In this document: piece after piece, positions 1,807 to 5,832 of the stretch
Numbering within the stretch: the first letter of the stretch is position 1
How the letters are laid out: the number at the start of each line of letters is the position of its first letter
Source of the DNA: Promethearchaeota archaeon
GTDB taxonomy: Archaea; Asgardarchaeota; Lokiarchaeia; Sigynarchaeales; SOKP01
Direction of reading: 5' to 3'
Assembly (NCBI GenBank): GCA_030620005.1
Contig: JAUXAJ010000184.1
Span: forward strand, 1 to 10,529
Length of the DNA: 10,529 bases
Made by a program: the position numbers and the translations under genes
The notes under the pieces: generated by a model
The model's database searches: none
What the model saw: the letters and a program-made list of their open reading frames with translations, nothing else
Told to the model about the DNA's origin: nothing

Positions 1807-2232
1807 ATGACTGAAAGCGAATATAAGCCCTATATACTCGGGTTATGTTGTAATTGGTGTACTTACGCAGGCGCAGACCAAGCGGGGACGTCTAGAATGC
1901 AGAGACCAGCAAATCTGAGAATACTTAGAATGATGTGTGGAGGTCGAATTGAGCCGCAATTTGTGTTGGACGCCCTAATGAACGGAGCGGATGGTGTATT
2001 AGTAAGCCATTGCCACAAAGGAGATTGTCATTATGTGACTGGAAATCACAAGACTTTTGGAAAAATGTCCATTCTTCTTCGATACTTAGAACAATTCGGG
2101 ATTAATCCGAAAAGAGTATATTATACGCAAATATCTGCTTCAGAGGGAGCAGAATTAACAGAAGTAGTCGAAGAATTTGTACATACATTAAAAGAGTTAG
2201 GACCCAATCCAATTAAAAAGGAGGGAAAATAA
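1807..2232 (+). CDS. mvhD: MvhD-type iron-sulfur subunit (hydrogenase/heterodisulfide reductase delta)
   Basis: MvhD/FlpD family (COG1908), 141 residues, which is full length. These are small cytoplasmic [2Fe-2S] proteins that pass electrons from a hydrogenase or formate dehydrogenase to HdrA in electron-bifurcating complexes. Diagnostic residues are CCNWC (C14, C15, C18), MMCGGRIEPQFVLDAL (C44) and HCHKGDCHY (C69, C74), the conserved Cys set of the family. It is the first gene of the fwd operon, and the next gene follows after four bases. The Shine-Dalgarno of that gene, AAGGAGGG at 2218-2225, lies in the mvhD 3' end. No hydrogenase or hdrA is in the window. Its presence here suggests that electrons for or from formylmethanofuran dehydrogenase pass through an Hdr-type complex, which is inference from position. 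Confidence 0.93.
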   Translation: MTESEYKPYILGLCCNWCTYAGADQAGTSRMQRPANLRILRMMCGGRIEPQFVLDALMNGADGVLVSHCHKGDCHYVTGNHKTFGKMSILLRYLEQFGINPKRVYYTQISASEGAELTEVVEEFVHTLKELGPNPIKKEGK

Positions 2233-2236
2233 AAAA

Positions 2237-2494
2237 ATGCAAGTGTTTAAGTTAAAAGTAAATCATTACCTCTGTACTGGTTGCAATATCTGTGTAGTTT
2301 CGTGCCCAATAAATTTTGACGAGCTAAAAACTAAAAGCAAATTGACCGCCGAAAACGCTGTTATTCTGGTAAAAAATGGCATTGCCAGGCCAATATATGA
2401 TGAAGGCAGGAAAAGAAATTGCGATGGATGTGGTGTTTGTATTAAATCTTGCCCTCAAAATGCAATTCAAATAGAAATAATAAATGTGATGTGA
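2237..2494 (+). CDS. fwdG: Ferredoxin with two [4Fe-4S] clusters, FwdG-like subunit
   Basis: This 85-residue protein has two complete Cx2Cx2Cx3CP motifs: C13, C16, C19, C23 and C62, C65, C68, C72. It therefore binds two [4Fe-4S] clusters. About 38 residues separate the motifs, as in the FwdG subunits of archaeal formylmethanofuran dehydrogenases, and its place before the polyferredoxin and fwdD fits that role. It would carry electrons between FwdB/FwdD and the polyferredoxin chain. A good Shine-Dalgarno (2218-2225) sits 11 bases before the ATG. A generic ferredoxin cannot be excluded from sequence alone, so the symbol rests on context as much as on the protein. Confidence 0.75.
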   Translation: MQVFKLKVNHYLCTGCNICVVSCPINFDELKTKSKLTAENAVILVKNGIARPIYDEGRKRNCDGCGVCIKSCPQNAIQIEIINVM

Positions 2495-2505
2495 GGTATT
2501 AAAAA

Positions 2506-3213
2506 ATGTCATTTCCAAAAATATCAAGAACAATAAGTAAGGAAGAAGAAAGAGTTAAAGTTCAATTCCTCACCGAAAGTTTAGAACTAATTCTTAATAG
2601 AGAAAAGTGCGTTGGATGCGGAACGTGTGCCAGAGTTTGTCCAAAGGAAGCTGTTAGTCGAGGACCTATAGGGGCATCTGCAAGATTTCCTACCACGGAA
2701 GATATCATTCCACAAATTTACGACCCAAAAAAATGTGTCTTTTGCGGGACTTGCGTGGTCATGTGTCCATTCAGCGCATTAACGCTTGTAAAAGATGGAG
2801 AAATAATTGAACTGGCAAGTATCCCATTAGTGGAACAGAAGGTGATACCTAAGCTTGAATTTGAAGCGAAAAAATTAGATAATGGTAAGGTCGTCAAACA
2901 ATATGCTAAAGCAAATGTAAGTATTGTGATCGATGAATGCGCTGGGGGCTGTTCTACTTGCGCTGAAGTTTGCCCTAGTGGAGCAATTAAAGTTGCGGCA
3001 AGACCAGAAAAAGGTTGGGAGTCAAGTGGCAAGGTAGAAGTTGTAGATCCTGACCTCTGCGTGGCGTGTGGTGCTTGCGATAATGGATGTCCAACTGGAG
3101 CTATAAAATTAGAGATAACTGAAGTAAAATATTCAGGAGATTACAGTAAAACATTCTGGCCACCTCTAATAGAAAGATTAAAAACATTAAAATGGAGTAA
3201 AAAGGAGGCTTAA
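2506..3213 (+). CDS. fwdF: Polyferredoxin with four [4Fe-4S] clusters, FwdF-like subunit
   Basis: This 235-residue protein has four ferredoxin motifs: C35/38/41/45, C77/80/83/87, C145/149/152/156 and C185/188/191/195. All end in CysPro. The third has a one-residue insertion (CAGGC, Cx3Cx2Cx3C) that may change cluster geometry or potential. Methanogen FwdF carries eight clusters in a longer chain, so this is a half-size version: two two-cluster domains joined by a linker of about 55 residues (90-144). The role is electron transfer to the FwdB active site. GAGGT about ten bases before the ATG serves as a Shine-Dalgarno, and the next gene starts five bases after the stop. The symbol is assigned from position between fwdG and fwdD; the polyferredoxin call is secure. 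Confidence 0.8.
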   Translation: MSFPKISRTISKEEERVKVQFLTESLELILNREKCVGCGTCARVCPKEAVSRGPIGASARFPTTEDIIPQIYDPKKCVFCGTCVVMCPFSALTLVKDGEIIELASIPLVEQKVIPKLEFEAKKLDNGKVVKQYAKANVSIVIDECAGGCSTCAEVCPSGAIKVAARPEKGWESSGKVEVVDPDLCVACGACDNGCPTGAIKLEITEVKYSGDYSKTFWPPLIERLKTLKWSKKEA

Positions 3214-3218
3214 AAAAG

Positions 3219-3614
3219 ATGAGTATAGAGAATTTAACTTTAATAACCGGACGCACGATAAACCAAGGCGTTGCGCTTGAAGGGGGAAAAGTCACAAAAG
3301 AAAACGTTCGGGCTGCTGCTCTTTGCGCCTTTGATCCGGAAGATTTTAAAAAATTAGATTGTCTAATCGGAACCCCGGTAAAAATTACTACAGATCACGG
3401 AGAAGTGACGGTATATTCCACGATCTCAGAAGAAGGACCACATTCAGGAATAATTTTTGTTCCAATGGGACCTTGGGCAAATCAAGTTGTCAATCCAGAT
3501 TCTCAATCTTGTGGAACTCCAACTTATAAAGGAATGAAAGCAAAAGTAGAAGCTGTAAAAAATGGTAAAGTTTTGGACGCATTAGAATTAATAAAAACAT
3601 TAATGGAGGGTTAA
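3219..3614 (+). CDS. fwdD: Formylmethanofuran dehydrogenase subunit D (molybdopterin-dinucleotide binding)
   Basis: FwdD/FmdD, 131 residues, corresponding to the C-terminal pterin-binding beta-barrel of other DMSO-reductase-type enzymes, here a separate subunit that pairs with FwdB. Recognisable features are LITGRTINQGVALEGGK near the N-terminus, FVPMGPWANQVVNP (80-93) and SCGTPTYKG (97-105), the family hallmarks that contact the bis-pterin cofactor. The Shine-Dalgarno AAGGAGG ends about ten bases before the ATG, inside the fwdF 3' end. fwdB follows after four bases, in keeping with the tight FwdB-FwdD partnership. Confidence 0.95.
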   Translation: MSIENLTLITGRTINQGVALEGGKVTKENVRAAALCAFDPEDFKKLDCLIGTPVKITTDHGEVTVYSTISEEGPHSGIIFVPMGPWANQVVNPDSQSCGTPTYKGMKAKVEAVKNGKVLDALELIKTLMEG

Positions 3615-3618
3615 AATA

Positions 3619-4977
3619 ATGGTAGAAAAAAGTATTAAAACTTTTGAGGACGTCGTGTGCCCATTTTGCGGAAAGGAATACTTTTTTTAAAGATTCCCCG
3701 TATCATTATGCGACGATCTCGAAGTCGATGTTAACGTACACGAAAATATTGTTGTAGAAGTTCGAAATGCGTGTCAAATAGGCACGAGAAAATATTTCTC
3801 GTCTAATCCAAGTGAACACAGATTCGAGAAACCAATGATTAAAGACAACGGCTCTTTAAAAGAAGTTTCATGGGATGAAGCGATAAATAAGGCAGCAGAA
3901 ATTTTAACCAAAGCTAAAAGACCACTGCTTTATGGCTTTTCAAGCACGGAATGTGAAGCCCAAAGTAAGGGGGTTGAGTTAGCAGAGATTTTAGGAGGCA
4001 TTTTGGATAACACTGCTTCCGTATGTCACGGGCCTACATTGCTTGCCGTTCAAGATGTAGGAGCGCCAAGCTGTACGTTAGGAGAGATAAAAAATAGGGC
4101 TGATTTAGTCATATTTTGGGGTTGCAATCCAGTTCACGCACACCCAAGGCATCTTGGAAGGTATTCTGAATTTGTTAGGGGCTATTTCAGGACGGACGGA
4201 AGGAACGATCGCACTATCGTAGTAGTTGATCCTCGCTACACGCATACAGCTCAAATAGCCAACACGTACATTCAAGTGAATCCTAGCGAGGATTACGAGT
4301 TATTAAACGCGATTAGAGCCGTGCTTAGAGGCGTAGAATTAGACGATAAGGAAATATCCGGAGTATCAATGGAAAAAATTAAAGAACTAGTTGAGGTAAT
4401 GAAATCGTGCAAGTTTGGAGTCATATTTTTCGGAATGGGATTAACTCAAAGCTTATCTCACCATCGAAACATTGATACCGCTATTTGTCTAACAAGAGAA
4501 TTAAACGATAAGACTAAATTTTCAATCATTCCAATGCGAGGCCACTACAACGTTGCTGGAGCTAATCAAGTGTTTACTTGGGCAACTGGCTACGCATATT
4601 CTATAGATTTCTCAAAAGGTTACCCTCGATATAATCCGGGAGAGTTTTCCGCTTGTGATCTGTTAATAAGAGACGAAATCGATGCGTCTTTAATAGTCGC
4701 GTCCGATCCCGCTTCAAATTTTCCAGCAGCTTCAGTACGAAACATGTTTAAACACCCTTTAATCGCTATAGAACCACATGAAACACCTACTTCGGCAAAT
4801 GCAGATGTTGTTTTACCCGCAGCTATTGCGGGAATTGAATGTGAAGGAACCGCCTATCGAATGGATAAAGTTCCTTTAAGAGTAAGAAAAGTAAAGGACG
4901 CACCCGGTGAATGTCTAACTGATAGAGAAATATTGGAAAGATTAATTGAAAAAGTAAAGGAGAAGCAAGGTGAATAA
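3619..4977 (+). CDS. fwdB: Formylmethanofuran dehydrogenase catalytic subunit B, interrupted by a predicted BHB intron
   Basis: FwdB/FmdB holds the W- or Mo-bis-pterin centre that reduces CO2 to formate, or the reverse, before transfer to methanofuran. Read straight, the gene stops after 23 codons at TAA 3688-3690. Joining 3619-3673 to 3704-4977 gives 442 residues, close to the family's roughly 430. The N-terminal [4Fe-4S] ligands are then C14, C17, C21 (CPFCGTLCDDLEV) and C42 (RNACQIG). The catalytic Cys, C126 in SVCHGP, is encoded by TGT and aligns with Cys118 of the Methanothermobacter enzyme, so this is not a selenocysteine form. YGFSSTECEAQSKGVELAE, FWGCNPVHAHPRH, IPMRGHYNVAGANQV and EGTAYRMDKVPLR are all intact. 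The start is the ATG eight bases after GGAGGG (3605-3610). The alternative ATG at 3835 would remove all four cluster ligands. No decay is seen elsewhere, which argues against a pseudogene. Confidence 0.93.
3646..3720 (+). other. Bulge-helix-bulge RNA structure around the fwdB intron, with an outer stem
   Basis: From outside in: outer stem GAGGACGTCG (3646-3655) with CGACGATCTC (3711-3720), with one A-A mismatch and one G-U; a six-base 5' bulge (3656-3661); a weak helix (C3662-G3710, A3663-U3709, U3664-A3708, two U-U, U3667-A3705); 3-nt bulge A3702-C3704; a central 4-bp helix (G3668-U3701 wobble, C3669-G3700, G3670-C3699, G3671-C3698); 3-nt bulge A3672-A3674; and an inner hairpin (GGAAU 3675-3679 with AUUCC 3693-3697, bulged A3680, CUUU 3681-3684 with AAAG 3689-3692, UUUU loop). 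This is the hBHBh' arrangement with tRNA-like polarity: 5' cut next to the inner helix, 3' cut next to the outer one. Confidence 0.85.
3674..3703 (+). other. Predicted 30-nt archaeal BHB intron in fwdB
   Basis: The segment begins AGGAATAC and ends CCCCGTAT and contains the in-frame TAA at 3688-3690. Its ends are set by the BHB rule, cleavage between bases 2 and 3 of each 3-nt bulge: A3672-A3673 / A3674 and A3702-U3703 / C3704. Ligation of A3673 to C3704-A3705 makes ACA (Thr19) and restores CPFCGTLCDDLEV, which agrees with FwdB sequences I know from methanogens. Thirty bases is a plausible size for archaeal introns, which in tRNAs can be very short. Known processing uses the splicing endonuclease EndA and ligase RtcB, neither of which is encoded here. 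The fold and the restored consensus are independent lines that agree on the same ends. Splicing itself is a prediction. Confidence 0.87.
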
Positions 4978-4980
4978 GTA

Positions 4981-5832
4981 ATGGCTGAAATAAAGTTAAA
5001 GTTAAAAACCCAACCTGATTTTCCACTGGAAGCAGAATCAATCTCTCCAGATAATTTTGCTGGAAAATCCGCTACAGATATTAAAAAGTTAGTGTTGTAT
5101 CACGGAAACGAGGAAGTTACCCTAGGAGATTTTTTTAGTGTTTCCGGAAAATCTGGAGATATAAGCGAATTAAAAATTATCATGGATGGAAATCTATCCA
5201 ATGTAAAGCGCATCGGAGAAAATATGACTGGTGGAGAAATCGTGATAAACGGTAATGTAGGAATGCACGTTGGAAATCATATGTCAGGGGGAAAGATTTT
5301 AGTTAATGGTAATGCGGATGATTGGGCGGGTGCTATGTTGAAAGGTGGTGAATTAGAAATTACAGGGAACGCTGGACATTATGTAGGAGCCGCTTATAGA
5401 GGTTATTGGCAAGGAATGAGAAATGGTACCATTAAAGTTAAAGGAAAAATAGGTAATGAAGCATTGTTATGGGCAAACGGCTCTACAGTCGCTAAAAGGT
5501 TTCCAACTTTATATTGTGGTGGTGCAGCATCATTTTTAGGCGCACATAATCACGGTGGAACCATTGTAGTTGATGGTGATGTAGATCGCTGCATTGGAGC
5601 TGATCAAGTAAAAGGTACAATCGTAATTAAAGGGAAAATTTCAAGAATACTCCCGTCGTTTATAAAGATTGGAGAAGTCAATGAAATTGAACTATTCAAC
5701 GGAGAAAAAATTACCGGGAAATTCATTGAATACAGCGGAGATCATTCCGTTAAGAAAAATCATTCTGTTGTAAGTAAGAAAACGGGGAATGTTAATATTG
5801 GTGTAAATGGCAGATTATACATTGCCGCTTAA
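4981..5832 (+). CDS. fwdC: Formylmethanofuran dehydrogenase subunit C (beta-helix scaffold)
   Basis: FwdC/FmdC, 283 residues, related to the C-terminal GXGXG domain of glutamate synthase large subunit. It forms a right-handed beta-helix that holds the FwdA and FwdB/FwdD parts together. The turns are visible as imperfect repeats: GGEIVINGNVG (85-), GGKILVNGNAD (103-), GGELEITGNAG (122-), NGTIKVKGKIG (148-), GGTIVVDGDVD (192-) and KGTIVIKGKI (211-). The first 70 residues are a separate cap region. The start lies three bases after the fwdB stop, with AAGGTGA as a Shine-Dalgarno in the fwdB 3' end. It is the last gene of the operon in this window. In several methanogens fwdA precedes fwdC; here fwdA is absent on both sides. 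Confidence 0.94.
   Translation: MAEIKLKLKTQPDFPLEAESISPDNFAGKSATDIKKLVLYHGNEEVTLGDFFSVSGKSGDISELKIIMDGNLSNVKRIGENMTGGEIVINGNVGMHVGNHMSGGKILVNGNADDWAGAMLKGGELEITGNAGHYVGAAYRGYWQGMRNGTIKVKGKIGNEALLWANGSTVAKRFPTLYCGGAASFLGAHNHGGTIVVDGDVDRCIGADQVKGTIVIKGKISRILPSFIKIGEVNEIELFNGEKITGKFIEYSGDHSVKKNHSVVSKKTGNVNIGVNGRLYIAA

Follow-up and report, generated by a model that had tools for sequence, protein, structure and literature searches.

We propose that the 30-nt insert that breaks the fwdB gene in the window (the whole stretch of 10,529 nucleotides analysed, from a Promethearchaeota archaeon) is an mRNA intron of the bulge-helix-bulge (BHB) type, predicted from its sequence to be cut by EndA, with the exons probably joined by RtcB so that the motif CPFCGTLCDD is restored, and that it belongs to a population of Asgard introns of about 30 nt; we put the probability of this reading at about 94%. 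EndA would cut the fwdB mRNA at both bulges, RtcB would join the two exons and the intron would leave, and the spliced mRNA would encode a 442-residue FwdB carrying the Fe-S motif CPFCGTLCDD; unspliced fwdB RNA would yield a 23-residue peptide only. The initial annotation of this DNA had already suggested a BHB intron in fwdB, and at the level of sequence the suggestion is supported by recurrence of the insert in separate assemblies, by its presence at three fwdB sites, by restoration of the protein, by stems in the exons and by EndA and RtcB in related genomes. Its reading as a single case beside cbf5 did not hold, since these genomes contain many such introns (41 in six genes), that of the window among them.

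The window holds an operon-like run of genes in the order mvhD/flpD, ferredoxin, FwdF-like polyferredoxin, fwdD, fwdB and fwdC (Table 1), and the loci closest to its fwdB are Lokiarchaeota MAG genes with a protein identity of up to 83%. A GGAGG lies upstream of the fwdB start at 3605-3609, and the reading frame from ATG 3619 bore out the earlier statement that an in-frame TAA splits the gene: the unspliced ORF has 23 codons, running through MVEKSIKTFEDVVCPFCG and KEYFF to the TAA at 3688, and the family match restarts at LCDDLEV. Excision of 3674-3703 in silico deleted the stop and gave CPFCGTLCDD within a 442-codon gene, the remainder of which is open, in agreement with the CPFCG-T-LCDDLEV that had been predicted; the solved FwdB 5t5i has VCPFCGTLCDD, the same motif as the spliced window gene. 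ARAGORN detected no tRNA, either in the window or in the 20 loci scanned. At 510-1483 on the minus strand of the window, a HEPN protein lies beside a nucleotidyltransferase-domain protein, neighbours that form the usual toxin-antitoxin layout.

Table 1. Features of the window around the interrupted fwdB gene.
Feature	Position	Strand	Description
mvhD/flpD	1807-2232		
Ferredoxin	2237-2494		
FwdF-like polyferredoxin	2506-3213		
fwdD	3219-3614	+	adjoins fwdB on its 5' side, unbroken; NF042908 109.5 bits (below the curated cut-off of 175)
fwdB, whole gene	3619-4977	+	broken by the 30-nt insert 3674-3703
fwdB exon 1	3619-3673	+	55 nt; encodes MVEKSIKTFEDVVCPFCG and the first base of the Thr codon
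Outer stem, 5' strand	3642-3659	+	exon 1 coding sequence throughout; pairs with 3707-3724
Central BHB helix, 5' strand GCGG	3668-3671	+	exon 1; pairing probability 1.00
5' bulge AAA	3672-3674	+	predicted cut between 3673 and 3674
Predicted BHB intron	3674-3703	+	30 nt; contains in-frame TAA 3688-3690; absent from intact homologues
Inner intron hairpin	3675-3697	+	stems of 5 and 4 bp, a single bulged base and a loop of 4 nt
Central BHB helix, 3' strand CCGU	3698-3701	+	intron; pairing probability 1.00
3' bulge AUC	3702-3704	+	predicted cut between 3703 and 3704; A3702 pairs with U3667 in the minimum-energy fold
fwdB exon 2	3704-4977	+	formylmethanofuran dehydrogenase subunit B, (T)LCDDLEV to stop; TIGR03129 605 bits
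Outer stem, 3' strand	3707-3724	+	exon 2 coding sequence throughout
fwdC	4981-5832	+	adjoins fwdB on its 3' side, unbroken; TIGR03122

For the RNA of 3640-3730 the predicted fold has an energy of −29.3 kcal/mol (z −4.2), and none of 200 shuffles was equally stable. The BHB rule was applied as a cut between bulge bases 2 and 3 at both exon-intron borders. The 4-bp helix previously described between the bulges (3668-3671/3698-3701) was recovered with a pairing probability of 1.00, against a mean of 0.02 when the intron was shuffled, and 0 of 300 shuffles matched it. As for the two 3-nt bulges of the same description, the 5' bulge is exact, whereas the minimum-energy fold has a 2x2 internal loop (3665-3666/3703-3704) on the 3' side; because U3667 pairs with A3702 in that fold, the window motif is a slightly relaxed BHB. 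Three cuts of the insert are consistent with the protein, two giving CPFCGSLCDD and one CPFCGTLCDD, and only the cut before 3674 has the full 4-bp helix and gives CPFCGTLCDD, so that the structure rule and the protein consensus agree on the ends, as had been claimed. A group I or II self-splicing intron was rejected, the insert having only 30 nt and no Rfam family reaching the gathering threshold in the window; such introns have a catalytic RNA core of hundreds of nucleotides.

Among 77 of the 80 fwdB loci (three start too late in the gene and were left out), the N-terminal interruption was found in 4 of 36 Lokiarchaeal loci (L002, L011, L012 and L029) versus 0 of 41 others. A pattern scan of 155 records gave 99 with an intact motif, 39 in which the pattern was not matched (EndA loci in four cases), and 17 odd records, of which nine are the window, L002, L011, L012, L029, L150 and second copies of three, and eight (L141-L148) are motif variants without interruption. 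Besides the window, six genomes carry frameshifting fwdB inserts of 29 or 31 nt, at three positions and each with a BHB-like motif: site A (CGGAA^, the caret marking the insert) in the window, L012, L029 and L150 (30, 29, 29 and 29 nt), site B (CCGTTT^) in L002 and L011 (29 nt each), and site C, internal at about residue 135, in L037/L137 (31 nt). Lengths of 29 and 31 nt exclude simple read-through. In all seven fwdB alleles the BHB-rule cut is among the 1-5 protein-consistent cuts with a helix score of at least 5, a score that 4-6 of 51 offsets per allele reach; in L029, L002 and L137 another offset, inconsistent with the protein, outscores it in the helix. The central helix has a pairing probability of 0.74-1.00 in six of the seven alleles, reached by 0-1 of 300 shuffled introns; that of L137 has a probability of 0.07 in a longer fold (6 of 300 shuffles). 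Whole-structure energy with the intron shuffled is unremarkable for L012, L002 and L011 (z −0.7, −0.4 and −1.1).

Intron-free fwdB orthologues had been expected to match the spliced form, and they do; most Lokiarchaeal fwdB genes examined are intact. The motif is intact in 105 of the 120 FwdB protein matches listed, and nine of the other 15 (P0004, P0017, P0020, P0039, P0055, P0064, P0070, P0094 and P0100) start with residues that, from the proteins alone, are readable as 3' ends of site A or B introns. In a phylum survey of 227 genomes at least 192 have a FwdB match; among the matches listed, near-full-length FwdB starting past residue 14 is found in G001-G004 and G053 (contig ends aside) and FwdB split internally in G035. 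An ORF comparison (at least 150 codons, 44 records), which is insensitive to introns near gene ends, found L037 only. Several breaks were rejected as introns: that of L149 is a deletion, the paralogues L151-L154 have no insert in the alignment, and those of G187 and G215 (L170, L171) are contig ends.

In the protein database the window FwdB (P0001) starts at 3835, without the first 62 of its 442 residues, which would fit translation from an internal start without the N terminus, or in two pieces, with the hairpin as a retained regulatory RNA element. We consider this very improbable: both CPFC cysteines would be lost from a motif that is kept in the solved FwdB, exon 1 encodes the CPFC motif in 6 of 6 site A/B intron alleles, and regulation needs no restoration of the protein upon removal of the hairpin. 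If the insert is spliced as a BHB intron, gene callers truncate intron-bearing genes, P0001 being an example.

An assembly or sequencing artefact, or a fwdB pseudogene, would agree with the window being one contig and with the few other genes in these genomes that hold nonsense codons without an insert (L216, L247). However, separate assemblies share the size and design of the insert at the same codon, the remainder of fwdB is open and precisely restored, exon stems accompany the insert, and one EF-2 intron (L234) is found on a contig of 2.27 Mb in a genome of 2.3 Mb, and we attach hardly any weight to such an origin. The genome G002, with the fwdB intron, and G011, without it, are alignable over 122 kb at about 90% identity. 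Of the 16 indels of 12-130 nt that separate the two, the 29-nt fwdB insert alone combines a length that is no multiple of three with the lengthening of an ORF of more than 100 codons upon removal; a 15-nt insert in G011 leaves a 350-codon ORF shortened by 15 at its C-terminal end, and the remaining indels lie in short ORFs or long ORFs stay open.

Four more families, hand-chosen and thus not a random sample, were searched in 83 genomes of the class of L012. In total 41 inserts (39 distinct) were scored, at 16 positions in six genes (fwdB, fwdA, cbf5, cdhA and two EF-2 paralogues). At least 25 of the 83 class genomes carry one or more such introns, a minimum because match tables do not reveal introns close to the ends of genes, and three genomes outside the class carry them too. 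A protein-consistent cut with a helix score of at least 5 exists in 41 of 41 inserts, with four standard central pairs in 36 and three plus one mismatch in five (L012, L137, L228 and L227 twice), counts that are favoured by taking the cut as the best among 1-9 protein-consistent ones; in a scored subset of 22 inserts the chosen cut was always also top in protein score. The insert length is not divisible by three in 22 of the 41. When the helix was shifted (32 of the 41 introns), 32 introns had it at the rule register and 24-25 at the two registers that prolong the same helix, three other cells held 13-24, and 0-10 were counted elsewhere.

Ribosomes that hop or shift frame over the insert offer a further explanation, and the short gap, the hairpin and the early stop do resemble bypassing elements, of which T4 gene 60 is an example. 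Bypassing requires matching take-off and landing codons, and by our own reading of the site A sequences the take-off GGA is set against landing codons GTA, GAA, GTA and GTA, a match in 0 of 4; it also leaves the BHB register in 41 introns unexplained, and we find translational bypassing scarcely credible here.

The fwdA introns (L214, L215), in a subunit of the same enzyme as FwdB, lie at two further positions: that of G010 has 30 nt (GPW^EFALHH, helix CAUG/CAUG), and only the BHB register gives the reference E; that of G046 has 31 nt, and here the BHB cut yields E where K stands in the reference and results from two other registers, a point against the proposed reading. The cbf5 intron of G081 (L221) has 32 nt (GTL^DPKVTG, helix CACU/AGUG). 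In cdhA (L224-L228), eight introns in five genomes, one or two per gene, are placed in and ahead of the Cys-rich motif (YMP^ICDM, CCL^CTYGKC and in GPHP). The EF-2 b paralogue (L230-L242, L245) has 15 introns in 14 genomes, at ITAH^IDHGKTT, AHIDHG^KTT and MTDSD^DEEQERG (two lie 6 nt away), and EF-2 genes that best match the a paralogue (L243, L244, L246, L248, L249) have five, at GHIDHG^KTT and DTPGH^VDF; EF-2 introns of the class of L012 are in the P-loop, in DTPGH and in one nearby motif. Outside the class, G155, G157 and G158 (L264, L265, L266) have EF-2 introns of 29 nt each at DTPGHVD^F.

Other breaks in these families were rejected as introns. The cdhA break of L229 is a masked stretch of N, the EF-2 gene of G127 is split across two contigs, and fwdA of G027 (L216) and EF-2 of G072 (L247) have stop codons without an insert, for which a pseudogene, an error or recoding are candidate readings. 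The EF-2 genes of G124, G130 and G134 (L273, L271, L274) give a two-piece family match in one open frame of more than 800 codons, and because the gap lies within that one frame it was taken as extra protein sequence, after about position 215.

The outer stem is encoded by the exons and supports splicing independently of the homologues. Its stability in the site A/B alleles (−13.5 to −21.2 kcal/mol, 6 of 6) exceeds that in every one of 50 distinct intact alleles, taken from loci of the class of L012 and from L036 (best −12.5 and −12.8). Synonymous resampling reached the outer stem in 4, 0, 58, 10, 0 and 24 of 2000 draws for the six alleles; that of L029 is moderately unusual (58 of 2000 resamplings; 16 of 383 other places in the gene). 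When L029, L011, L012 and L150 were compared with their intronless kin L018, L009, L021 and L006, respectively, the 24 codons near the site had 8, 9, 13 and 13 synonymous and 1, 2, 2 and 2 non-synonymous changes, and the next 100 codons 14, 7, 33 and 10 synonymous ones. The changes between intron alleles and intronless kin cluster round the site and are mostly synonymous. Exon sequence is tied to the presence of the intron, and both selection and transfer of the flanks with the intron are compatible with this. As the site A outer stems of fwdB have no common register, we claim no position-by-position covariation for them. For the nine EF2b site-64 introns (8 distinct) covariation is modest. 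The share of paired cells, 94%, is matched by 3 of 500 shuffles, and both sides have changed in 4 cells (1 of 500). Doubly changed pairs (157 of 500) and further types of pair (389 of 500), in contrast, are no more numerous than in shuffles, and at one position three of the sequences lack the pair.

PF01974 (EndA) was found in 14 of 14 related genomes, with two proteins in ten and one in four, and RtcB in 6 of 6 genomes with a fwdB intron. The first EndA paralogue of G003 resembles the crenarchaeal subunit of broad specificity: it best matches the EndA of A. pernix (3p1z, E 1e-34), and NKPR aligns with EKPR of 3p1z, the K-P-R of the Crenarchaea-specific loop being kept; the second paralogue has, by eye, no His at the catalytic place. 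An (alpha beta)2 EndA with the Crenarchaea-specific loop is defined by a pair of paralogues, the catalytic one having Lys-Pro-Arg in the loop and the other no catalytic His; the Asgard pair may form such an enzyme. The A. pernix EndA mutants P45A and R46A have drastically lowered cleavage according to the available text of PMC12397907, and in that of PMC6379350 (alpha beta)2 and epsilon2 EndA are reported to be efficient on relaxed BHB introns, M. kandleri being a constrained exception.

In the accessible parts of two papers from 2009 and 2020 (PMC2738675; PMC7714728), cbf5 of Crenarchaea is named as the sole confirmed case of a BHB intron within an archaeal protein gene, putative introns in other such genes being predicted and unconfirmed according to the first. 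The crenarchaeal cbf5 introns, as described in the available text of PMC2738675, resemble ours in being short BHB introns in an archaeal protein gene, often with a relaxed motif, in the link that the authors draw to hetero-oligomeric EndA, and in lineage-specific loss. They differ in occurring in one gene, in Desulfurococcales and Sulfolobales, whereas the Asgard set spans fwdB, fwdA, cdhA, two EF-2 paralogues and cbf5 and is scattered among close relatives; the Asgard cbf5 intron shares the gene with the crenarchaeal precedent, comparison of position aside. The intron-rich tRNAs of Atabeyarchaeia and Freyarchaeia (PMC11291895) are alike in being archaeal, in non-canonical intron positions and in their Asgard hosts, and unlike in that the introns are in tRNA and not in mRNA, with no protein-gene introns reported in the available text. 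EndA also processes mRNA at BHB sites in HVO_1309 of Haloferax, but in the 5' UTR, outside coding sequence (PMC7714728, available text). Our literature search, with preprints and most subscription journals outside its coverage, did not turn up BHB introns described for fwdB or for any Asgard protein gene. Crenarchaeal cbf5 already exemplifies this kind of intron; in the literature searched we met no description of its occurrence across several Asgard genes, and protein-gene introns look far commoner in Asgards than that literature reports.

If these introns are spliced, Asgards depend on tRNA-splicing enzymes for EF-2, CO dehydrogenase and a complex of central carbon metabolism, the splicing machinery would be required for CO2/formyl metabolism in the window organism, as was pointed out earlier, and the group thought to be ancestral to eukaryotes possesses a non-spliceosomal system of mRNA introns. 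The recurrence of the introns in active-site motifs is reminiscent of mobile introns and inteins. We think it fairly probable that Asgards, above all Lokiarchaeia, harbour a genome-wide, fast-turnover population of EndA-spliced introns of about 30 nt in essential genes, within codons of active-site motifs (P-loop and DTPGH of EF-2, GTLDPK of Cbf5, Cys clusters of CdhA and FwdB), that spreads like a mobile element and makes mRNA splicing a routine part of gene expression in the closest prokaryotic relatives of eukaryotes.

A tree was built from 151 FwdB rows, after removal of five duplicates and without P0001 and P0114; 47 of its 148 inner branches have support below 80. Site A, in six rows, takes six changes on it, no fewer than with shuffled labels, and site B, in ten rows, two of which are one genome's gene, takes four. 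Intron labels are scattered on this tree, and gain is indistinguishable from loss there. Given the scattered presence among close relatives, the introns probably come and go quickly, and gain, loss or both are likely to be frequent; if the introns are spliced, relatives with and without them allow gain and loss to be studied directly.
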